Of a stretch of DNA of 28,066 bases, positions 386 through 26,518 are shown piece by piece. A program made the translations under genes and the position numbers. This DNA is from Nitrospinota bacterium. GTDB taxonomy: Bacteria > Nitrospinota > Nitrospinia > JACRGO01. Numbering within the stretch: the first letter of the stretch is position 1; every line of letters begins with the position of its first letter. Below the pieces are notes generated by a model, which was not told where the DNA came from, did no database searches, and saw nothing but the letters and a program-made list of their open reading frames with translations. The stretch covers positions 1-28,066 of the forward strand of contig JACRGO010000213.1 of NCBI GenBank assembly GCA_016212295.1. Direction: 5' to 3'.

Positions 386-2347
386 ATGTCTGTAATCATG
401 ATAGTGGATGACGATGAACCAATTCTTCAAGTGGCCGGGGCATACCTTCGCGCCCTTGGCCATACTCCTCTTCCCGCCCCTGATTCCACCCAGGTTTTTC
501 CGATTTTGGAGAATAACTCCGTTGATCTCATTTTGCTGGACGTTTTCATGCCCGATATCAATGGAATGGAGTTGCTTCAACTAATCAAGTCCCACCCGGT
601 TTATCAAAATATTCCTGTAATCATGCTGACCGGCGGACCGGAAGAAATGCTCCTCGCGAAGTGTTTCGAACTGGGCGCCACGGATTTTGTCTCAAAACCA
701 ATCAAGAAAACGGTCTTGCAATCAAGGATAAAAATGGCCCTTGCCGCAAGGGAATATATCCGCCAACTGGCGGACTTTAATGAGAACCTCGAAAAGATAG
801 TAAGACAAAGGACCATGGAACTGCGGGAGAGTGAAGAGAGGCTGCAATCCATTTTGGACAACGCCACGGCGGTTGTGTACCTCAAGGACACCCAGGGCAG
901 GTATCTTTTGATCAATCACCGCTATGAGGTTCTTTTCCACATAAAAAAAGATGAAATTTCAGGGAAAACCGACCATGATATATTCCCGGAAGAAACAGCG
1001 GATAAATTCATGGCCAACGACAGGAAGGCATTGGAAACACTGGGTCCCTTGGAGTTCGAGGAGGAGGTCCCGCAAGATGACGGAAACCATACCTATATTT
1101 CCATGAAATTCCCTCTTGTTGATCCACTAGGGGTCCCCTACGGGGTGTGCGGCATCTCAACGGACATCACGGAACGAAAGCGGATCGAGGAAGAACTGCT
1201 CAAGCTGTCCAGGGCCGTGGAACAAAGCCCTAATTCCGTGATTGTCACCGACATCCAGGGAAACATAGAATACGTCAACCCTAAATTCAGCCAGTTGACC
1301 GGATACACATCCCAAGAGGTGGTCGGAAAAAATCCCAGGATATTGAAATCCGGGGAAACCCCGCCGGAGTATTACAAGCGTCTGTGGGACACCATTGTCT
1401 CCGGCAGGGAATGGCAGGGAGAATTTCACAATAAAAAGAAAAACGGAGATCTCTTTTGGGAGTCCGTGGCCATCTCCTCCATAAAAAATACCAGGGGAGA
1501 GGCCACGCATTTCATCGCGGTGAAGGAAGACATCACCGAAAAAAAACTCGTGGAGGAAAAGGAGAGGCGCCAGCGGGAGCAACTGGCCCAGGCCGATAAA
1601 ATGATATCCCTGGGGACCTTGGTGGCCGGGGTCGCCCATGAGATCAACAATCCCAATAACAATATCCTGCTGAACGTGTCGTCCCTTAAAAAAATATGGG
1701 AACGGATGAAACCGATGGTCCTTTCAAAAGCCGAAGCGGCTGGAGAAAATAGTTTTGGTGAAATGGACGTCGGAGAGGGCATTAGACTCTTCGAGGAACT
1801 GCTGGGCGTGACCGGCAAGGCCGGGGAACGCATAGAAAAAATCGTGGACGGCCTGAAGGCGTTCGCCAGGGAGGACACCTCGGGTTACCAAAACAAGGTG
1901 GACGTGGGCAGGATGATTGAATCCTCGGTGAAACTCCTGGAAAGCCTGATAAAAAAAAGCGCCAACCGGTTCAGATGCGATATTCCACCGCTCCCGTTGG
2001 TCAGGGGAAATTTCCATAAATTGGAACAGGTAATGGTTAATTTAATCATAAACGCCTGCCAGGCGCTGGAGGACCCCAGCCAGCGCATTGAAGTCAGCGC
2101 GATCCACAATGAGCCCGAAGGCATGGTGGATATCACTGTCAGGGATGAGGGAAGGGGAATGGATGGAGAGGTCCTGCGAAGGGTGATGGAGCCGTTCTTT
2201 ACCACCCGGCAGGCGTCCGACGGGACCGGGCTGGGCGTTTCCATCTCCTATGGAATTATCCGGGAGCATGGGGGCGACATGGTTTATGATTCAGCGCCGG
2301 GCAAGGGGACTACCGTATGCGTCAGGCTGCCTGTGGAGAGGGAATAG
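386..2347 (+). CDS. REC-PAS-PAS sensor histidine kinase, cytoplasmic
   Basis: A 653-residue protein with no membrane segments, so probably a soluble kinase. An N-terminal receiver (about 1-120) has the acid cluster D8-D9-D10, phospho-acceptor D52 in LILLDVFMPD, T82 and K104. A short coiled coil (125-150) leads to two PAS domains (about 150-275 and 275-395); the second starts LSRAVEQSPNSVIVTD, and both end in the typical DITE(R/K)K linker. The kinase core has H418 in AHEINNP, an N box near VMVNLIINACQAL, and G boxes DEGRGM and GTGLGVS. By family knowledge, phosphorylation of the receiver would tune autophosphorylation of H418. No good ribosome-binding site precedes the ATG. The partner may be the sigma-54 regulator 87 bp downstream, but that is inference. 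Confidence 0.93.
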   Translation: MSVIMIVDDDEPILQVAGAYLRALGHTPLPAPDSTQVFPILENNSVDLILLDVFMPDINGMELLQLIKSHPVYQNIPVIMLTGGPEEMLLAKCFELGATDFVSKPIKKTVLQSRIKMALAAREYIRQLADFNENLEKIVRQRTMELRESEERLQSILDNATAVVYLKDTQGRYLLINHRYEVLFHIKKDEISGKTDHDIFPEETADKFMANDRKALETLGPLEFEEEVPQDDGNHTYISMKFPLVDPLGVPYGVCGISTDITERKRIEEELLKLSRAVEQSPNSVIVTDIQGNIEYVNPKFSQLTGYTSQEVVGKNPRILKSGETPPEYYKRLWDTIVSGREWQGEFHNKKKNGDLFWESVAISSIKNTRGEATHFIAVKEDITEKKLVEEKERRQREQLAQADKMISLGTLVAGVAHEINNPNNNILLNVSSLKKIWERMKPMVLSKAEAAGENSFGEMDVGEGIRLFEELLGVTGKAGERIEKIVDGLKAFAREDTSGYQNKVDVGRMIESSVKLLESLIKKSANRFRCDIPPLPLVRGNFHKLEQVMVNLIINACQALEDPSQRIEVSAIHNEPEGMVDITVRDEGRGMDGEVLRRVMEPFFTTRQASDGTGLGVSISYGIIREHGGDMVYDSAPGKGTTVCVRLPVERE

Positions 2348-2420
2348 TCATTGGTCATTAGTCATTGGTCATTTGTCATTTGTCATTGACCATTGACCAT
2401 TGGCTAATGACCAATGACTA
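2345..2420. repeat. Palindromic repeat of TCATTGGTCA units
   Basis: A perfect 17-bp inverted repeat, TAGTCATTGGTCATTAG (2345-2361) and its complement (2404-2420), encloses further copies of the units TCATTGGTCA, TCATTTG and TGACCATT. The left arm starts exactly on the TAG stop codon of the preceding kinase gene. The right arm contains the most upstream ATG of the next gene (2414). A second copy of the family lies at 3983-4070. Confidence 0.85.
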
Positions 2421-2434
2421 TTAATTTTACGAAC

Positions 2435-3847
2435 ATGCAAACTCCAAAAACTCTTTACCAGGACAAAAAGATACTTCTCGTGGACGACGACAAGGACGTC
2501 CTGCTCAGCCTCTCCGCCAGCCTCAGGATAGCGGGATACAGGAACGTCGTGGCCCTGGATGACAGCCGTCGCGCCATGGACGCGTTGGAACGGGACCGTT
2601 TCTCCCTGGTCCTTCTGGACCTTCTCATGCCCCATGTTTCAGGAAAGGACCTTCTGGAGAACATCGTGGAAGCCTTCCCGGATATTCCAGTTGTAGTTGT
2701 GACAGCGGTAGATGATTTGGATTCCGTGGTTTCCTGTATCCGGGCCGGGGCGCAAAATTATCTGCTTAAACCCGTGCGCGAGTCGCGCCTGCTGGCCACG
2801 GTGGAAAACGCCTTGCGCATCAAGGTCCTGGAAGATGAAAATCAGGCCCTCAAAAAAAAATTTTTCGATAATAAACCCGCGCATCCGGAAGCCTTCCAGG
2901 AAATTATAACGGTCGACCCCCGCATGGAAGCCATCTTCAGCTATCTGGAAGCCATAGCAGGCACGCCCTATCCTATCCTGATCACGGGTGAAAGCGGAAC
3001 AGGAAAGGAACTCATCGCCGGGAGCATCCGCAAATTGAGCGGTTGTAAGGGTGAATTTATCGCGGTGAACGTGGCGGGCTTGGATGACGCCCTTTTATCC
3101 GATGTCCTGTTCGGCCACAAAAAGGGGGCCTTCACCGGCGCTGACAGGGACAGAGATGGCTTGCTCCGCAAGGCGGAAAACGGATGCGTCTTTCTGGATG
3201 AGATCGGCGATATGGAGGTGTCCTCTCAGCTAAAGCTGCTGCGGCTCCTACAGCATCGGGAATATCACCCCATAGGCTCAGACCAGATTCAAAAAACCAA
3301 CGCCAAATTCGTCATGGCCACCAACAGAAACCTTGAGAACGCCATGAAAGAAGGAAAATTCCGGGCCGACCTGTTCTATCGTCTCTCCACCCATGTCATC
3401 CATATTCCTCCCCTGCGGGAGCGGAAGGCCGACCTGCCATTTCTGTTAAGGCATTTTATACAAAAGCACGCCGGGGTTTGGGGAAAAAAACCCCCGGATT
3501 ACCGGCCGGATTTGTTGGACCTCCTGGGCCGTTACCACTTTCCTGGGAACGTCAGGGAGTTGGAAAATATCATCGCAAACGCGGTTGCCGTTTCCAAGGG
3601 TAAATTTCTCGACGCCGAAGGCGTGAAAAAGAGCATCCATCTGGAAAAGGGAACGGAAGGGAAAGGTCCCGATCCCTTGGCCGACGGCGGATTCGAACCG
3701 ATTCCTACCCTCAAGGAAGTGGAGGCAAGGCATATCATCTCCGCGCTGCAATACACCAACAACAATATTTCTCATGCGGCCCGGCTGTTGGGGATCGACT
3801 ACACCACCCTGCACCGGAAGCTGAAAAAAATCTCGCCATTCAGGTAA
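2435..3847 (+). CDS. Sigma-54-dependent response regulator (NtrC family)
   Basis: A 470-residue activator of sigma-54 RNA polymerase. The receiver (about 10-125) has D17-D18-D19, phospho-acceptor D62 and a K in YLLKPV. A short helix leads to an AAA+ domain with Walker A GESGTGKE, the sigma-54 contact loop GAFTGA, Walker B CVFLDEIGD and the arginine-finger region FRADLFYRL. It ends in a Fis-type helix-turn-helix, HAARLLGIDYTTLHRKLKKI. All key residues are present, so it should hydrolyse ATP to open sigma-54 promoters. I chose ATG 2435 because the in-frame ATG at 2414 lies inside a repeat arm; neither has a clear ribosome-binding site, so 2414 remains possible. Candidate -24/-12 promoters are at 14062-14078 and 18657-18673 in this window. 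Confidence 0.93.
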   Translation: MQTPKTLYQDKKILLVDDDKDVLLSLSASLRIAGYRNVVALDDSRRAMDALERDRFSLVLLDLLMPHVSGKDLLENIVEAFPDIPVVVVTAVDDLDSVVSCIRAGAQNYLLKPVRESRLLATVENALRIKVLEDENQALKKKFFDNKPAHPEAFQEIITVDPRMEAIFSYLEAIAGTPYPILITGESGTGKELIAGSIRKLSGCKGEFIAVNVAGLDDALLSDVLFGHKKGAFTGADRDRDGLLRKAENGCVFLDEIGDMEVSSQLKLLRLLQHREYHPIGSDQIQKTNAKFVMATNRNLENAMKEGKFRADLFYRLSTHVIHIPPLRERKADLPFLLRHFIQKHAGVWGKKPPDYRPDLLDLLGRYHFPGNVRELENIIANAVAVSKGKFLDAEGVKKSIHLEKGTEGKGPDPLADGGFEPIPTLKEVEARHIISALQYTNNNISHAARLLGIDYTTLHRKLKKISPFR

Positions 3848-14256: not shown

Positions 14257-15243
14257 TCAACCGTTGGCAAGTGGACACAACTCCAGGTCCTCGATCATTC
14301 TTAAATCCGCCTCGCAGTCGCGGCCGGTGGTGGTGAGGTAGTTGCCCACCATGGTGGAGTTGGCCCCGGCCGCGAACATCCACGACTGCAAGTCTCTCAG
14401 GTTATATTCCCTTCCTCCAGCCACCTTGATGTCCTTGTCAGGCAGATAAAAGCGGTACACGGCTATGATCTTTAAAATTTCCAATGGACGCAATGGCGGG
14501 ATGTCCTGGACCTGAGTGCCGGGAATGGGATGAAGGAAATTGAGAGGCACGGAGTCCACGTCCAGTTCCCTAAGCGTCTGGGCCAACTCGATGCGCTGCT
14601 CCGGCGACTCCCCTAAACCGAAGATTCCGCCGCAACAGGCCATGAGTCCCGCCTCTTTCACGGCGATGATGGTGTCCACGTCCTCCTGGTAATCGTGGGT
14701 GGTGCAGATATTGGGAAAGAAACTCCGGGCGGTTTCCAGATTGTGGTGGTATTCCTGGAGTCCGGCCTCCTTCAGCTCCAACGCCTCCTCCCTGGAAATG
14801 ATTCCCAATGAGGCGCAACGGTGCAAGGAGTCCTCTGCCCTTAGATGCCGGAGCATCCGCAACACCGCCTCCCTGTCCTTGCCGTTAATCCCCTTGCCGC
14901 TGGTCACTATCCCGAACCGGTCCGCGCCGCCATGCCGGGCGCGGTCCATTTGCCTTGCAACGGCGTCCGCTCCCACCATGGGGTATTTTTTGATCTCCGA
15001 GGAATTGTGGGAGGATTGGGGGCAGAAGGAGCAGTCCTCGCCGCAATTACCCGACTTGGCGTTGATGATGGAACAGAGGCTGATCTTGTTTCCCTTGAAG
15101 TGGTTCCTGATCCGGTTGGCCGAGGCGATGAGGGAAAAGATATCCGGCCCCTTGGCGTCCATTAATTCCAATGCCTCTCGCGGACCGGGCCGCTCTCCCC
15201 CCAGGACCCTGTCTTCCAGGTCTATAATGCTTCTTTTGTCCAT
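14257..15243 (-). CDS. bioB: Biotin synthase (radical SAM), atypical cluster-ligand set
   Basis: A 328-residue enzyme that inserts sulfur into dethiobiotin, the last step of biotin synthesis. The radical-SAM motif is C67-GED-C71-SF-C74, followed by PQSS. YHHNLETA, GGIFGLGES, NFLHPIPGT, AGGREYNLRDLQ and ANSTMVGNYLTTTGR are typical of BioB. The arginine of AGGRE matches the E. coli Arg260 cluster ligand; C143 and C203 match Cys128 and Cys188. The position of E. coli Cys97 is glycine (G111 in RFGIVTSG), while extra cysteines occur at C180 and C204. This suggests a different auxiliary iron-sulfur cluster. No Shine-Dalgarno precedes the ATG and a -10-like box lies directly before it. The gene is 61 bp behind the hybrid kinase on the same strand. 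No other biotin genes are nearby. Confidence 0.95.
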   Translation of the reverse strand: MDKRSIIDLEDRVLGGERPGPREALELMDAKGPDIFSLIASANRIRNHFKGNKISLCSIINAKSGNCGEDCSFCPQSSHNSSEIKKYPMVGADAVARQMDRARHGGADRFGIVTSGKGINGKDREAVLRMLRHLRAEDSLHRCASLGIISREEALELKEAGLQEYHHNLETARSFFPNICTTHDYQEDVDTIIAVKEAGLMACCGGIFGLGESPEQRIELAQTLRELDVDSVPLNFLHPIPGTQVQDIPPLRPLEILKIIAVYRFYLPDKDIKVAGGREYNLRDLQSWMFAAGANSTMVGNYLTTTGRDCEADLRMIEDLELCPLANG

Positions 15244-15304: not shown

Positions 15305-18013
15305 CTACTTTGCTTCTTTTTTAAAGACAGGCACCACCCGTTCCAGATAATCTGAAAATTCCTCGATTTTCCCCCGGATCTCTTCAATGTTCTTTCCCTT
15401 GCCGGCTTGTTCCAGGACAATGCCTATGCGGCTGATAGGCTCAAATCCAAAGGAGGCCCCGGTCCCCTTCATTTTATGCCCTAAACTCGCCACGGCCTCG
15501 AAATCCTTTTCACGCGATGCTTCTTGAAGTCCCTTGAGATTCTCACGCATCCTTTCCAGGAAACGAGGTATATAATCCTGGACGTCCACCGGGATGTGGG
15601 CCGGAATTTTTCCCTTTATCGCCTCGGCTGATTGAGTAGCGCAAGCCGCGTGTTTCAGGATGGTTTCCAGCAGCAGCGCCTTTTTCACCGGTTTAGTGAT
15701 GTGGCTGTTACAGCCCGCCCTGCGGCTCTTTTCCGATTCTTCCCTGAGGGCATAAGCTGTTAAAGCGATGACCGGTGTCTCCCCCGCGTTCGTTTCATGC
15801 TCCCACTTCCTTATTTCCCTGGTGGCGGCGTATCCGTCCATGACGGGCATCTGCATGTCCATCAAAACCAGATCATATTTATTCGCCTTGAATTTTTCCA
15901 CGGCCATGGCGCCGTTTTCAGCCACGTCCAGGCCCCAGGGAGCGCCTTTCAGGTAGGCATGGACCACCATCCGGTTTTCCTCCGCGTCATCCACGAGGAG
16001 TATTTTAAGCGGGGGAAATTTACCGGGATCAATGGAGACCTTCAAGGCCGTCTCCGCCTCTGCTTCCTCTATTTCCCCCAAGGCGGAAAGGATGGAGTCA
16101 TGCACATTGCTCCTCCTTATAGGTTTAAACAGATAACCGCCGATCCCCAATCCATGGTATCTATCAATATAGCTGCTCCGGTTTTCGGTGGTAAGCATCA
16201 TGACCGGCAGGCTCCCCATGCCGGGGCTCTTTTTTATATGTCCGGCGATATCAAAGCCGTCCATTCCAGGCATGAGGCAATCCAAAAAAACAAATTTATA
16301 AGGATCTCCCGCCTTGTGGGCCCGGTCCAATTTAGAGAGGGCCGTTGGTCCCGACTCTGCCTCCTCCACCAGGGCGCCTGCCTCGGAAAGAATTTCGCGC
16401 AATATAAAACGGTTCATGGCGCTGTCATCGGCTATAAGTATCCTTGCGTCCTTAAGGTTCGTTGGGGCGGGCGGGCGGGCCTCTTCCAGCCCGGAGGCCG
16501 ATTGGGAGTGGATGGAAAAATAAAAAACGCATCCCTGGCCATCCGCGCTTTCCACCCAGATACGCCCTCCCATTAGTTCCACCAAGCGTTTGGAAATGGA
16601 GAGTCCCAATCCAGTGCCCCCATATTTGCGGGTGGTGGAGGAATCGGCCTGGGTGAAGCTGTCAAAAATCCTGTCTTGTTTTTCCTTAGGGACGCCTATT
16701 CCCGTGTCCTTTACGGAGAAGAGCAGTTCCACGTCCCCCTGGCCGCCGCTTTCCGTTTCCTTCAGCCGCGCCTCGATAACCACCTCTCCCTTGTCAGTGA
16801 ATTTGATGGCGTTTCCTATGAGATTTATGAGGACTTGGCGGAGCCGGACCGGGTCGCCCTTTATCATGCCCGGCACATCGGGATGCACGCGGAAGGCCAC
16901 CTCGATGTTTTTTTTATGGGCGCGTATGGCCAGAATGTCGCACGTCTTTTCCATTAAATCGCGGAGATTGAAGTCCACGTATTCCAACTCGATATGCCCT
17001 GCCTCTATTTTCGAGAAATCAAGAATATCGTTTATAAGGGCCAGGAGGACGTCTCCCGATGTTTTGGATAATTGCAAATATTCCTTCTGGGCCGGGGTGA
17101 GAGAGGTCTCTTCCAGCATTTCGCCCATGCCGATGATGGCGTTCAAGGGGGTGCGGATTTCATGGCTCATTATGGAGAGGAACTCGCTCTTGGCCTTAGT
17201 GGCCTTTTCCGCGCTTTCCTTCGCGACAAGCAGTTCCTTGTTGGCGATCTGTAGTTCGGCTGTCCTTTCCTCCACCATTTCCTCCAATTGTTCCCTGTGC
17301 CGCGTGAGTTCCTGGTCCCTTCCCTGTATCTGGCTCAGCATCTCATTAAAGGTGTCCACCAGCAGCCCCAATTCATCTTCGCTTTCCTTCATGGCCCGGA
17401 CAGAATAATCCTTTTTCTCGGAAACGGTTTTTGCGGATTGGACCAAGTTCAAAACCGGGCCTGAGATCAACCTCTGGAGCCTTGAGGAAAGAAAGAAGGC
17501 CACCAGGAAGGAAATGAGCAGCACGGATGCCGCGGTAATGGCGTTTTGCTTCAGGATATCATTCAATTCATTTAAGTCGGCCTTGATGTAAACGGTCCCG
17601 ATCCTTTCATTCTCCAGGAAAATGGGCCTGAACATGATAAGATGGGAGTCGCGGAATATATATCCGTCCTTTTCCGGCCTTGGAGGGAAATCCGCCTTTT
17701 GGGTCCCGCGGAAATAGCAGGTGAACATTTGCCCCGTGTCCTCGTAAATGCAGGATGTGACTATGGATTGCTTGGCCGACAGCGCGGAAAGGGTCTCCTT
17801 GGCGGACACGGGATCATTAAAGGCGATCGCGGCTGTGCTGCGGTCCGCGATGATTTCCGCGAGGGTGGAGAGGTCCCGGACCATGTTTTTTCTCAGCAAG
17901 GCCTGGTCGTAGGCGATGAACATGGCGCAGGCGATGAGCAGGGCGGCGGAGCTGGTTAGAAGGATAATGGCCCGCAGCTTGTTTTTCAGGTTCAGATTTT
18001 TCAGCGTCCTCAC
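15305..18013 (-). CDS. Hybrid histidine kinase: CHASE8-like sensor, HAMP, kinase, two receivers, Hpt
   Basis: A 902-residue inner-membrane phosphorelay protein. TM1 is about 14-35 and TM2 about 158-176. The periplasmic part (about 36-157) has LAEIIADRSTAAIAFND, characteristic of the CHASE8 sensor of YfiN-like proteins. A HAMP domain (about 177-235) and coiled coil lead to HisKA with H284 (SHEIRTPLN), an ATPase domain with N401, DTGIG and GGTGLGLS, receiver 1 (D578 in FLDCLMPGMDG), receiver 2 (D719 in LMDMQMPVMDG) and a C-terminal Hpt with H846 (LGHKMKGTGASFG). All phospho-sites for a His-Asp-His relay are present. The YfiR-like gene starts the pair and ends 6 bp upstream. I infer that the YfiR-like protein controls this kinase in the periplasm. 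The final output regulator is not in the window. Confidence 0.94.
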   Translation of the reverse strand: MRTLKNLNLKNKLRAIILLTSSAALLIACAMFIAYDQALLRKNMVRDLSTLAEIIADRSTAAIAFNDPVSAKETLSALSAKQSIVTSCIYEDTGQMFTCYFRGTQKADFPPRPEKDGYIFRDSHLIMFRPIFLENERIGTVYIKADLNELNDILKQNAITAASVLLISFLVAFFLSSRLQRLISGPVLNLVQSAKTVSEKKDYSVRAMKESEDELGLLVDTFNEMLSQIQGRDQELTRHREQLEEMVEERTAELQIANKELLVAKESAEKATKAKSEFLSIMSHEIRTPLNAIIGMGEMLEETSLTPAQKEYLQLSKTSGDVLLALINDILDFSKIEAGHIELEYVDFNLRDLMEKTCDILAIRAHKKNIEVAFRVHPDVPGMIKGDPVRLRQVLINLIGNAIKFTDKGEVVIEARLKETESGGQGDVELLFSVKDTGIGVPKEKQDRIFDSFTQADSSTTRKYGGTGLGLSISKRLVELMGGRIWVESADGQGCVFYFSIHSQSASGLEEARPPAPTNLKDARILIADDSAMNRFILREILSEAGALVEEAESGPTALSKLDRAHKAGDPYKFVFLDCLMPGMDGFDIAGHIKKSPGMGSLPVMMLTTENRSSYIDRYHGLGIGGYLFKPIRRSNVHDSILSALGEIEEAEAETALKVSIDPGKFPPLKILLVDDAEENRMVVHAYLKGAPWGLDVAENGAMAVEKFKANKYDLVLMDMQMPVMDGYAATREIRKWEHETNAGETPVIALTAYALREESEKSRRAGCNSHITKPVKKALLLETILKHAACATQSAEAIKGKIPAHIPVDVQDYIPRFLERMRENLKGLQEASREKDFEAVASLGHKMKGTGASFGFEPISRIGIVLEQAGKGKNIEEIRGKIEEFSDYLERVVPVFKKEAK

Positions 18014-18019
18014 TTAATC

Positions 18020-18571
18020 TTATTCCTTAACACCCTTGGCCAATTCAAGGAGTTTGGAGCTTATCCTGAGGCCTGCCCGCTCGGCCGCTGGCAGATTGAC
18101 GACGAAACGGATTTTGCTTTCATGTAAAACAAATTGGATAATGCCCCCGGCGTCTATGAAACCTTCCATGTCTCCCACGGTCAAAATGTTCTTTTCATTC
18201 AAGGCTTGGAAGATGCCTGCAAGGTTTTTTTTCTCCGAGTCGCTCACGAAGAGGCAATCGCAGTTTCCGATGTGCTGTAAATCGGTGATGAGCCTGATGG
18301 CGACCTTGCGGGCCTTCACGGGTTTGCTGTTAATAATATTCAGGTCTTCTCCAAATGGATCTAGTCCCAGGACGCAGACGGAGAATTCGGGAGAGGAGGT
18401 GGAACTTTCTGGCCACTCTACGAACCTGGCGAAATTGTACAGGAAGGCGGCCTTGACCTTATATTCCGGGAGTTGGTTTGATTCCGCGTGGACCTTCCAA
18501 AGCGTCGGCCCGGCAAAACATATGGCGGTAAGGGCCGCGTAGCCAAGAATTCTTTTTAGATAGCCTGGCAA
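18020..18571 (-). CDS. YfiR-family (DUF4154) periplasmic protein
   Basis: A 183-residue exported protein. The signal peptide is residues 1-29 (cleavage likely after KVHA), then the YfiR hallmark YKVKAAFLYNFARFVEWPE, FSVCVLGLDPFGEDL, a CDCLFVS segment, ILTVGDMEGFIDAGGIIQFV and the closing RFVVNLPAAERAGLRISSKLLELA. In Pseudomonas, YfiR sits in the periplasm and represses the diguanylate cyclase YfiN through its CHASE8 domain. Here the next gene, 6 bp away, is a CHASE8-like hybrid kinase, so the same type of periplasmic control is likely. The start is TTG at 18571; no ATG or GTG in frame gives a signal peptide. The outer-membrane partner YfiB is not in the window. A weak -24/-12-like promoter lies at 18657-18673. 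Confidence 0.88.
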   Translation of the reverse strand: MPGYLKRILGYAALTAICFAGPTLWKVHAESNQLPEYKVKAAFLYNFARFVEWPESSTSSPEFSVCVLGLDPFGEDLNIINSKPVKARKVAIRLITDLQHIGNCDCLFVSDSEKKNLAGIFQALNEKNILTVGDMEGFIDAGGIIQFVLHESKIRFVVNLPAAERAGLRISSKLLELAKGVKE

Positions 18572-21778: not shown

Positions 21779-22198
21779 TCAGGATAAACATTTTTTCCAA
21801 GACAGCTTCTTAATCTTTTCCACGAACTCTCTTATGTCAGGAATTTTGTTTTTTACGGCTATGATGTTATGCCAATTCGCCTTTAAATAATGATGAATGG
21901 TTTCATTGCGATGCTTCACCAGAGGCGCCACCTTCAGTACAATATCCCCGGCAAATTCATGGCAGGCCAGGATCGTGTCTTTATATGTATCCGGGACACT
22001 TCTCTTGTTTTCTTTTAAGCACTCCTCCGCGATATCCACCAAACACAAAATAATATCGTTTATGCTTTTGTCCAGGATGTTTCTTTTGTCTCTGTCGGCA
22101 AAATAAAGGTCTCTGTCCACCCCTTCAAGCCGTGAAAGGAAATATGACATGGTTTCCTCTAAAAACGCGCATAAGGAAATTGCTCTTTTTTCAGGCAC
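21779..22198 (-). CDS. hepT: HepT-type toxin (HEPN RNase) of a toxin-antitoxin pair
   Basis: A 139-residue, mostly helical protein with the HEPN motif RX4HXY exactly at R97-NETI-H102-H-Y104, the RNase active site of HepT toxins. Other family features are NILDKSINDIILCLVDIAEECL and the C-terminal helices. In characterised systems HepT is neutralised when MntA adds AMP groups to a tyrosine near the active site; Y104 is the likely equivalent. The start is GTG at 22198, with GGAGG 7 bases upstream inside the antitoxin gene. The two genes overlap by 8 bp, so translation is coupled with antitoxin first. Repeats flank the pair on both sides. Confidence 0.88.
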   Translation of the reverse strand: MPEKRAISLCAFLEETMSYFLSRLEGVDRDLYFADRDKRNILDKSINDIILCLVDIAEECLKENKRSVPDTYKDTILACHEFAGDIVLKVAPLVKHRNETIHHYLKANWHNIIAVKNKIPDIREFVEKIKKLSWKKCLS

Positions 22199-22574
22199 TC
22201 AAGGCCCTCCTGAAGCGTATGCCTTCAGATTCATGAAGCGCCCAATCGGCCACTTTATAAAGGGTGTCCTTGTCAGGCTCAACAAGGTGTGTTCCCTTTA
22301 AGGCCTTCTGAACCACGAAAGGCGATTCGTCTTCATCGTCAAGCCTTAAAATTGAGATATCCCGGTCAACCGCCATAAGGATTCTATCCACGGCGTCGGC
22401 CTCTTCCTTGCCGTCCCTTGGGCTTAGAAATATCGCCAAGTCGATATCCGACCGTCCATGCGGCGTGCCCTCGGCAAAAGAGCCGTAGAGAAGGGCAATG
22501 TGAATTTGCCCTTTTCTTTTCAGGTCCCAAAGGACCTCCTCAAGGGGTTTCAATTCTTTTTTAATTAAGGACAT
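22191..22574 (-). CDS. mntA: MntA-type nucleotidyltransferase antitoxin
   Basis: A 127-residue minimal nucleotidyltransferase with the motif GSX10DXD: G31-S32 ... D43-I-D45 in LLYGSFAEGTPHGRSDIDLA. A third acidic residue lies in the DRDISILRL strand near residue 77. In known HepT/MntA pairs this enzyme AMPylates the toxin and blocks its RNase activity. All catalytic residues are present, so the pair should be functional. The ATG at 22574 has GAGAGG about 11 bases upstream. Upstream on the minus strand a TATACT box lies near 22611-22616 without a good -35. Order (antitoxin first) and overlap match the family. Confidence 0.9.
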   Translation of the reverse strand: MSLIKKELKPLEEVLWDLKRKGQIHIALLYGSFAEGTPHGRSDIDLAIFLSPRDGKEEADAVDRILMAVDRDISILRLDDEDESPFVVQKALKGTHLVEPDKDTLYKVADWALHESEGIRFRRALSA

Positions 22575-23397: not shown

Positions 23398-24636
23398 TCA
23401 AGGAGAGGCATGGGCTGGGTTCTTAAATTCTTCCCACGGAAACAAGCGCCTATTTAAAAAAAAGCTCGCATGTCCCAAGACGTTGATTCTAAGAAAAGCG
23501 GCATGATGAAAAGAATCCTTATCCATTTTCGTGAGCATTACCCCTCCTCCGGCGAAAAATAAAGACCCGGTTCCAAGAAGAATATATGGACTGTCCGGGA
23601 TGGACGCCATATCAAGAACATGGCCGACACTTTTGTTTGGCATTTCAAGGCTTTCAGACAAAAATCGGCTTCTCACCGAAAAATCATCAAGAGAAAGAGT
23701 AAGCAAATTGCGCTTGGAATCGGCCATGGCGACGACCTGTAAAGATGGGACCCAAACCATTTCAGGAACGGGTCCATGCGGCAGGGCAATATCACGAATA
23801 TGGCTGCCAGTGGCGGCGTCCCAAACGGCGATCCGGTTCTCATGGCAAGAGTCATTGCCATGAGCTGTTATCAACCAACCCTTATCCGGAATATGAATCA
23901 GGCGATTGATCGCTGGAACGGCGCAAGGACGCAAAGCCGTCCAATGCAAGAACTTTTCTTTCCAGGCGCGGGTTTCGATGGTTCGCAGGATTTTTCCGGT
24001 TTTCGCGTCAACTTCGACAATACTGGACGACTGGCCGGTGGCCATTAAACGTCCTGGTCCCACAAACTGAATAGCGGATACCGGGCCGTTAAATAAAGGA
24101 ATTGTCGCAAGCACACGGGCGCCGGCAAGCTCAATCAAGGTCAACCGTCCGCCCAGGTCGCCCATGGCGAGGATATTATCGCCGATCACCATGCGGGTGA
24201 TTTCATGGTCGAATTCAATCTCCCCATGGCGAAGATCGTTTTTAAGAATCACCAGTTCCCTGGCCTTGCCTCCGAAAGCCGAGTAAACCCCGTTCGGACT
24301 TATGGCTATGGCCTTTATAACATTCGTGGTTATACGTATCAATTCAATATGCGGGGCGGCCTTCTGAAGCAAATCTTTTTTAGGCGCTAATTTAATTTTC
24401 AGCAAATTGGGCTGATTAAACAGCGCGGGCTCCACCCCGAAAAACAACCATGCGTTTACCGGATCGTAGGCAATGGCCGACACTCGTTGAATTACACTCC
24501 CGCCGTCGTTGTACTTGTACTCCTTCCACAAACAATAAAGAAAGTCCGGCGCTTGCGGCTTCGCCGGGAAGAAAGCAAGCCCCGGTCCGGCCAGCAAACC
24601 GGCAACAACTAAAAATCCCGCGATAATTTTCCGCAT
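23398..24636 (-). CDS. Secreted WD40/quinoprotein-like beta-propeller protein
   Basis: A 412-residue exported protein. A signal peptide covers residues 1-21 (hydrophobic core IIAGFLVVAGLLAGPG, cleavage likely at LA/FF). The rest is repeated four-stranded beta blades of the type VIKAIAISPNGVYSAFGGKARELVIL, NILAMGDLGGRLTLIEL, SSIVEVDAKTGKIL and ENRIAVWDAATGSHIR, which fits a seven-bladed propeller. Such domains usually bind partners and have no catalytic activity. It has no recognisable enzyme motif and no C-terminal anchor. The ATG lies 1 bp after the stop of the membrane-protein gene, so the two are co-translated or co-transcribed. A role as periplasmic partner of that membrane protein is inference. 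Scattered cysteines (C35, plus pairs near PCAV and SCHEN) may form disulfides. Confidence 0.75.
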   Translation of the reverse strand: MRKIIAGFLVVAGLLAGPGLAFFPAKPQAPDFLYCLWKEYKYNDGGSVIQRVSAIAYDPVNAWLFFGVEPALFNQPNLLKIKLAPKKDLLQKAAPHIELIRITTNVIKAIAISPNGVYSAFGGKARELVILKNDLRHGEIEFDHEITRMVIGDNILAMGDLGGRLTLIELAGARVLATIPLFNGPVSAIQFVGPGRLMATGQSSSIVEVDAKTGKILRTIETRAWKEKFLHWTALRPCAVPAINRLIHIPDKGWLITAHGNDSCHENRIAVWDAATGSHIRDIALPHGPVPEMVWVPSLQVVAMADSKRNLLTLSLDDFSVRSRFLSESLEMPNKSVGHVLDMASIPDSPYILLGTGSLFFAGGGVMLTKMDKDSFHHAAFLRINVLGHASFFLNRRLFPWEEFKNPAHASP

Positions 24637-24637
24637 A

Positions 24638-26518
24638 TTATTTTTGGATGTGATACACGGTTATTGTTCCGCTCTTGAAAACCGGACGGAAGATGGATGG
24701 GTCCTTTAGAGGCAGCGGGGTTGCATTCACCTGACGAGGCTGGCCCCCTAGCGGACTCATTTCCTTGAGAAAAGATGCGTCATATTCCACATAGTAATCA
24801 ATGTTTTTATGCATGGAAAAAAAATATCGCTGGAAATCAGGACTAAACCCGCTCGTGTAAAAATTAAAATAATCATACAGCCTCTGCTCCAGGATGCGCT
24901 GATACGAACCGGCAAACCGCTCGGCTTCATCTATGAAACTTTTCCGGTATGAAAGCGCGCTGAGAAAACTGGGGCGGTCGTTATAGCGCATTACATTATG
25001 CAGAAAAACACTGCTCTCCGGGGTCTCCGCGCGGAGATAACGGACAACGGCAAACTCATCCTGTGTCATTGAAAAATATTCATTGCAATTTTCAAAACGC
25101 GGCTGCAACAGGAAAATCCAAAAAAAAACGGCAAGCGCCGTGGCGCCTGCGCCCAATAAAACCGGCCTTGCAACTCCCACCCTGAACAACGCAACCGGTA
25201 AAGCCATCACCAAACCGTGAAGCACGATCTCGGCCGCGTCTCCAAGCAAATGAATCTGGGCCACCAAGCCATATACCATGAAACTTGCAACTCCTGTCCA
25301 CAAAACCTTTTCAATTTGGGACAACGGTTTCGCTCCAACCCGCTTCAGCCGCTCAAACGCGATTACAATAATCAACGGCACAATAATTAGTATTTCCTGA
25401 AAAAGATGTATTATTCTTGTCCAGTCAAAAAAAAACATCGTGTCAGGAAGAAACAGTAGAGCGAAAAACTTCCGGCTTACCCAAGCCATCAGCAGAAGCG
25501 GTAACACACCCAGGGCACATAGGCCCAGTTCCCTGAGCCGGGCTTTCCACCCTGAAGCGTTCCACACAACCAAAAAACAAAACGCCGCGGCCACGGGAAG
25601 CGCAGGAACCAAATAATTTCCTTTTACTACGTAGAGCAAGGTCCAGGAAAACGAGAGAAACAGAAAAACCGGACGTTGGTGGTCCAGGTAGCTTTTCATG
25701 AAGATAAGAGTACAGAGAATCATGAAAAGCCCGGCGAGATTTCTCAGCGGCATCATGCCCGCCTTGTACAAACCCAATTCAGGGGCAAGATAGAAAAAAC
25801 CGATCCCCAAAAAAGCCGGCCAATGCTCCCCTCCCAAGCGGCGTATAAGGTGGTATAAAAGCCCGAAAAAAATCAGAAAAAAGAAAAGAGGTGACCATGA
25901 AAAATAAGCATGCAACTGATCAGTTCCAGCCACTTTGATCAAAAAGGAAGCCATGAGGTTTCCAAGCCAACTATGATAAAAAGGCATTTCTCCAGGAAGA
26001 AACGGATTGTCCTCTGGCAAAAAGCGGTGCCGTGATTCATTAATCATGGAAAGCGTGTGAAGATCGTCCCAAGGTAAAACAGCGCCATAATTATTTCCGA
26101 GGTCTCCTCCAACACGGAACAAACCGAAATTTCCCCAAACAAGATGCGAATACAAAACCGCTGTTATAAGGAAAACCCAGGCGATAACCTTGGGATATTC
26201 AATATTGCTGAACACGGCAACAGGCATTTTCTTCTTCCGGAGCCAGACGAAAGCCTCCTTTCCCACGTAAACAAGGCATCCAGCCAGATACAGAAACAGC
26301 GACGCATCGGACCGCATTAGGAACATCACATAGGCAAGAGGATGCAACAACAAATAGCCCAATCCGGAGGCGAGCGCGCACTGTTCCGGAAGGCTTCCTT
26401 GCAAATCCGGCAACCGGCGGTAAATCGCCCATCCGGGAACAAAGACGAACAAAAACCATGCCCCAAAAACAGTCAAAGCTTCAATTATTGTATAGGGCGC
26501 AAACGGGTCTAAATACAT
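24638..26518 (-). CDS. Large polytopic membrane protein, GT-C glycosyltransferase-like
   Basis: A 626-residue protein with about 12-14 predicted membrane helices over residues 10-490, then a soluble C-terminal domain of about 130 residues. The loop after about TM4 carries GGDLGNNYGAVLPWDDLHT and PFLPGEMPFYHSWLGNLMASF, with acidic pairs at a position where GT-C transferases keep their catalytic Asp/Glu. GT-C enzymes move sugars from polyprenyl-phosphate donors on the outer face of the membrane. The C-terminal part (TPESSVFLHNV..., IDYYVEYDASFL) resembles the tail of such proteins. I do not recognise the exact family. The neighbouring family-2 transferase could make the lipid-linked donor. The ATG at 26518 has only a weak AGAGAT site upstream; the 63-bp gap before it holds nothing clear. 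Confidence 0.75.
   Translation of the reverse strand: MYLDPFAPYTIIEALTVFGAWFLFVFVPGWAIYRRLPDLQGSLPEQCALASGLGYLLLHPLAYVMFLMRSDASLFLYLAGCLVYVGKEAFVWLRKKKMPVAVFSNIEYPKVIAWVFLITAVLYSHLVWGNFGLFRVGGDLGNNYGAVLPWDDLHTLSMINESRHRFLPEDNPFLPGEMPFYHSWLGNLMASFLIKVAGTDQLHAYFSWSPLFFFLIFFGLLYHLIRRLGGEHWPAFLGIGFFYLAPELGLYKAGMMPLRNLAGLFMILCTLIFMKSYLDHQRPVFLFLSFSWTLLYVVKGNYLVPALPVAAAFCFLVVWNASGWKARLRELGLCALGVLPLLLMAWVSRKFFALLFLPDTMFFFDWTRIIHLFQEILIIVPLIIVIAFERLKRVGAKPLSQIEKVLWTGVASFMVYGLVAQIHLLGDAAEIVLHGLVMALPVALFRVGVARPVLLGAGATALAVFFWIFLLQPRFENCNEYFSMTQDEFAVVRYLRAETPESSVFLHNVMRYNDRPSFLSALSYRKSFIDEAERFAGSYQRILEQRLYDYFNFYTSGFSPDFQRYFFSMHKNIDYYVEYDASFLKEMSPLGGQPRQVNATPLPLKDPSIFRPVFKSGTITVYHIQK

Follow-up and report, generated by a model that had tools for sequence, protein, structure and literature searches.

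A YfiR-like gene paired with a hybrid histidine kinase gene

The window, i.e., the whole stretch of 28,066 nucleotides analyzed (contig JACRGO010000213.1 of the Nitrospinota bacterium assembly GCA_016212295.1), carries on its minus strand an open reading frame for a YfiR-like protein that ends 6 bp before the start of one for a large hybrid histidine kinase (Table 1). The YfiR-like protein was assigned to the YfiR/HmsC-like family by Pfam, and a phmmer search of the sequences of solved structures matched it with Pseudomonas aeruginosa YfiR (E 2.3e-6). The first part of a structural model of the two proteins, artificially fused by translating as Gln both in-frame TAA stops that separate the genes, matched YfiR crystal structures with target TM-scores of up to 0.83. 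Alignment showed that the Cys71/Cys110 pair of P. aeruginosa YfiR was kept, that Ile and Gln stood in place of Cys145/Cys152, and that F, L, and L occupied the positions of PAO1 F162, L181, and L183. A putative signal peptide, read by eye, indicates that the protein is secreted.

Table 1. Coordinates of the YfiR-like gene, the hybrid kinase gene, and their domains in the window
Feature	Positions	Strand	Basis
YfiR-like periplasmic protein (PF13689), 183 aa, TTG start	18020..18571	-	Pfam E 1.7e-47, phmmer, model match
Putative signal peptide of YfiR-like protein, ~residues 1-29	18485..18571	-	By eye: hydrophobic stretch, then KVHA|ES
CHASE8-HAMP-HisKA-HATPase-REC-REC-Hpt hybrid histidine kinase, 902 aa, GTG start	15305..18013	-	ORF, Pfam
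Periplasmic CHASE8 domain, kinase residues 40-143	17585..17896	-	Pfam PF17152 E 1e-17; same family in whole-genome search
AAIAF, kinase residues 61-65, counterpart of YfiN AAVVF	17819..17833	-	94 CHASE8 domains and E. coli DgcN aligned
HAMP, kinase residues 179-230			Pfam E 4e-7
HisKA, residues 274-339, phospho-acceptor H284	16997..17194	-	Pfam, motif
HATPase_c, residues 386-502	16508..16858	-	Pfam
First receiver domain, D578, limits approximate	16079..16435	-	Pfam Response_reg in two stretches, motif
Second receiver domain, D719	15659..16003	-	Pfam Response_reg, motif
C-terminal Hpt domain, residues 817-893, H846	15335..15565	-	Pfam, motif

The kinase has hydrophobic segments at residues ~15-35 and 158-176, corresponding to the layout of a receptor with two transmembrane segments. 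Its match to CHASE8 scored 64.7 bits against a cut-off of 27, and this family also contains E. coli DgcN/YfiN. What is presumed to be the second part of the predicted model resembled the extracytoplasmic domains of WalK- and CitA-type proteins. The cytoplasmic output consists of HisKA, HATPase, two receiver domains, and Hpt without a GGDEF domain, and H284, D578, D719, and H846 all lie in their motifs.

The pair is flanked on the kinase side by a biotin-synthase-like radical SAM gene (14257-15243, minus strand) and on the YfiR side by a divergent EPSP-synthase gene (from 18834, plus strand), with no OmpA-like gene beside it and no yfiB in the window. Elsewhere in the window, genes for an MNT-like nucleotidyltransferase and a HepT-like protein overlap end to end (21779-22574, minus strand) in the layout of MNT-HepT toxin-antitoxin systems, and a 626-aa open reading frame with no Pfam match (24638-26518, minus strand) adjoins the gene of a beta-propeller-like protein (23398-24636).

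Conservation of the gene pair

A profile search of the whole 3.74-Mb genome identified three PF13689 and three PF17152 genes, all in adjacent pairs; the same models recovered E. coli K-12 yfiR, dgcN, and yfiB as PF13689, CHASE8 plus GGDEF, and OmpA, respectively, as a positive control. Among 77 genomes of the class, both families were present in 27, one in 4, and neither in 46 (Fisher p 3e-16), and a CHASE8 gene lay within 1 kb downstream on the same strand for 46 of the 66 YfiR genes of the class. The three pairs out of three in the genome and the class-wide co-occurrence place the association of YfiR with CHASE8 far beyond chance. A large expansion of the switch was observed in one class relative (G044, 5.3 Mb), which encodes 14 YfiR-family and 12 CHASE8 genes. 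The original prediction, made from the DNA letters, had named a YfiR gene ending 6 bp before a 902-residue kinase, a CHASE8-like periplasmic part, a HisKA-ATPase-REC-REC-Hpt output with four intact phospho-sites, and no YfiB beside the pair, all of which agreed with the open reading frames, Pfam matches, motifs, and window neighbors; the conserved gene pairing that it proposed to look for was also found.

A wider survey was carried out by scanning one genome per species with a 3-sequence YfiR alignment, an 8-sequence alignment being too divergent, and comprised the closest relatives of the window YfiR (83 YfiR genes at 80 named loci). These loci were labeled as Nitrospinota, Nitrospirota, Acidobacteria, Desulfobacterota, Geobacter relatives, Verrucomicrobiota, Planctomycetes, Alpha- and Gammaproteobacteria, and others. 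A CHASE8 kinase adjoined 70 of the 83 genes by HMM and approximately four more by reading (~74), although the loci were picked for likeness to the window YfiR and this is therefore a census of one branch in which the kinase share is not unbiased. For the other genes, a CHASE8-GGDEF protein was near five, including one on the other strand at a distance of ~3.5 kb (L101), two were without CHASE8, and two were undecided as to their neighbor. No OmpA motif was detected in the 80 loci. In the YfiR tree, E. coli YfiR was very distant from the surveyed branch, and parsimony gave four swaps of output, a count that is not firm because the tree was poorly resolved.

Sequence support for a predicted contact between YfiR and CHASE8

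In YfiN, YfiR is proposed to bind at the AAVVF motif of the periplasmic domain (Malone et al., 2012; PMC3375315). This motif corresponds to AAIAF in the window kinase, and its Phe (F65) was invariant in 95 of 95 sequences (94 CHASE8 pairs plus E. coli DgcN), while the YfiR positions matching PAO1 F162, L181, and L183 were kept at 90-96%. Across 69 kinase pairs, YfiR distances correlated with those of CHASE8 at 0.60, compared to 0.48 for HAMP, 0.35 for HisKA, and 0.41 for HATPase, the difference between CHASE8 and HATPase being 0.19 (bootstrap 0.10-0.29). This covariation is consistent with one sensing unit to which different outputs can be attached. The fusion model, an artificial read-through without an inter-domain error estimate, had confident domains (pLDDT 92.7) and a pTM of 0.60 and yielded no usable interface. 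Physical binding of the YfiR-like protein to the CHASE8 domain is predicted from the motif and the covariation; its holding off of the kinase is predicted by analogy with YfiN.

A TonB-dependent receptor as possible third partner

A gene for a TonB-dependent receptor was adjacent to at least 74 of the 80 evaluable YfiR genes (~9 in 10), lying directly upstream on the same strand in 68 cases, divergently in 4, and just downstream of YfiR in 2. Of the receptors tested by Pfam, the plug domain was found in 4/4 and the barrel in 3/4. Two of the three YfiR-kinase pairs in the window's genome have such a receptor, and none is present beside the window pair. The orthologs of the window pair in a sister genome (L063; YfiR ~52% identical) lie beside a receptor gene that runs divergently ~200 bp from YfiR, and a receptor 66% identical to that one is encoded in the window's own genome at a contig end (C185:28750-30789; L169:8751-10859). 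On this similarity, the C185 receptor is likely the best candidate partner of the window pair, and since it lies at a contig end it could also belong to a fourth pair absent from the 90.5%-complete assembly.

In another genus of the class (L037, L039, and L040), the kinase gene has moved away and the receptor and YfiR genes are still together, and a receptor also precedes further YfiR genes that have no CHASE8 (L049 and L059). These loci without a kinase neighbor, together with the window pair without a receptor, indicate that the receptor-YfiR and YfiR-kinase links each survive without the other. The receptor-YfiR distance correlation was weak (0.21) and not clearly greater than that of receptor and HATPase. 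A search for an N-terminal motif that would set the YfiR-linked receptors apart gave a candidate that was rejected, as it was present in 30 of 73 and N-termini like it also occurred in unlinked receptors.

A full-text search of open-licence literature returned no report of a YfiR-TonB link, the matches being unrelated by title and abstract, and TonB does not occur in the text of PMC3375315, Table S4 apart. The recurrent TonB-type receptor beside YfiR-kinase pairs seems to be undescribed.

Output of the phosphorelay

The kinase ends in an Hpt domain and a separate response regulator would therefore have to act; no linked one was seen in the window, and none lies next to the pair. In the survey, a REC-GGDEF gene directly followed 8 of 24 two-REC kinases versus 0 of 46 others (p 8e-5, which is optimistic as the cells of the test are genes from related species). 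The REC-GGDEF genes lie right downstream of CHASE8-HisKA-HATPase-REC-REC kinases, most of them with Hpt, at L067, L077, L092, L102, L108, L115, L121, and L137. From this gene order, the two-REC phosphorelay of L067 and other such loci appears to feed a diguanylate cyclase. Given how often REC-GGDEF genes follow two-REC kinases, the phosphorelay of the window may still end in c-di-GMP.

The window's genome encodes several REC-GGDEF proteins, none of them attributable to the pair. One of these (C129) was rejected as the cognate output, being the nearest of several with ~31-39% identity to most of the linked proteins and lacking linkage. At a further locus of this genome (L174; G000:C168:17500-23000), a REC-GGDEF gene at ~2271-3571 on the minus strand is split over two frames (368 and 147 aa) by a frameshift or an assembly error.

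Proposed mechanism and alternative explanations

The observed domains, phospho-residues, gene pairing, motif conservation, and receptor neighborhood are best explained by a periplasmic switch of the Yfi type that feeds a phosphorelay, which we regard as rather likely. The secreted YfiR-like protein would bind CHASE8 on the kinase in the inner membrane and most likely hold the kinase off as YfiR does YfiN. When YfiR is drawn off or changed, a signal would pass through HAMP to H284, and phosphate would then move from H284, probably via D578 and/or D719, to H846 and finally to a response regulator separate from the kinase. In the majority of relatives, the outer-membrane input would come from a TonB-dependent receptor in YfiB's place, the role for which the C185 receptor is the candidate here. 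The final output would probably be a response regulator encoded elsewhere, a diguanylate-cyclase regulator being a reasonable guess.

Alternatively, the YfiR-like protein could be an activating co-receptor or solute-binding protein whose ligand-loaded form, perhaps carrying a molecule imported by the receptor, activates the CHASE8 kinase, in the way that some kinases are turned on by solute-binding proteins. An imported ligand is suggested by the TonB-dependent receptor neighborhood, crystallography of P. aeruginosa YfiR showed the pocket used by YfiB to bind vitamin B6 and L-Trp (PMC4887326), and a Trp-bound ABC-type domain as well as substrate-binding proteins were among the weaker structural neighbors of the model. 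However, activation of this kind is unlikely given that YfiR represses in the tested Yfi systems (PMC3375315) and that the YfiR subfamily of the window has no known ligand. Less probable still is that the pairing reflects adjacency of genes only, with YfiR and the receptor forming one unit and the kinase sensing another signal via CHASE8 with no YfiR-kinase contact. This would accommodate the several genomes with YfiR and a receptor but no adjacent CHASE8, as well as the fusion model that gave no interface, whereas YfiR distances covary clearly more strongly with those of CHASE8 than with those of the kinase core, the YfiN-derived motif is invariant, and the YfiR-CHASE8 pairing holds with GGDEF outputs too.

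Extending the Yfi-type switch to its surroundings, the receptor, periplasmic YfiR, and CHASE8 kinase may constitute a three-part relay from the outer membrane to the cytoplasm, a tentative proposal to which we give slightly less than even weight. It holds that the receptor and not YfiB is the usual partner in this branch and would report its occupancy without the FecA-FecR-sigma route, that the hybrid-kinase branch would often end in a REC-GGDEF cyclase, and that the receptor gene of the window pair would have moved away. A functional receptor link would mean that many bacteria can signal from an outer-membrane receptor through a soluble periplasmic protein to a kinase. It would also provide an input for the large and mostly unstudied YfiR family, and the well-known YfiBNR system would become a single branch of a broader switch driven by receptors. 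The question of the ligand would be testable as well, because the receptor genes adjoin the YfiR genes.

Comparison with known systems

The window pair belongs to the known modular Yfi switch. With distance from Pseudomonas, yfiB is missing in almost all Yfi operons and the GGDEF domain is in many cases swapped for GGDEF-EAL, Hpt, or sensor histidine kinases, including a hybrid kinase in Thauera, and the YfiR-YfiN[PAS/HAMP] core has been called a modular signalling unit (Malone et al., 2012; PMC3375315). The central idea of the original prediction, that the same periplasmic switch is wired to a phosphorelay, is in part supported, by the CHASE8 profile, the pairing, AAIAF with F65, and the covariation, but it is not new as the swap of GGDEF for a kinase and the missing yfiB have been in print since 2012, and the TonB-dependent receptor neighbor had been missed. 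Similarly to the window pair, the divergent systems of Geobacter, Acidobacteria, Opitutus, and Thauera in that study lack yfiB and have a histidine or hybrid kinase in place of GGDEF (PMC3375315), in a comparison made at the level of description; in contrast, TonB-dependent receptors are not part of that text.

The YfiBNR system itself (YfiR-YfiN/TpbB-YfiB in P. aeruginosa, with DgcN in E. coli) shares with the window a secreted YfiR gene placed just before the gene of a CHASE8 plus HAMP protein with two transmembrane segments, and the AAxxF motif and the YfiR hydrophobic positions are kept in the window pair. It differs in its GGDEF output compared to HisKA-HATPase-REC-REC-Hpt, in the presence of yfiB, and in the Cys145/Cys152 pair, which is important for the folding of P. 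aeruginosa YfiR and is missing from the window YfiR. A more distant parallel is WalK with YycH/YycI, a system without YfiR whose accessory proteins are membrane-anchored and unrelated to it; as proposed for the window pair, a Cache/PAS-like extracytoplasmic sensor stands under an accessory protein, and a WalK-YycH model was the top structural match of the fusion model.
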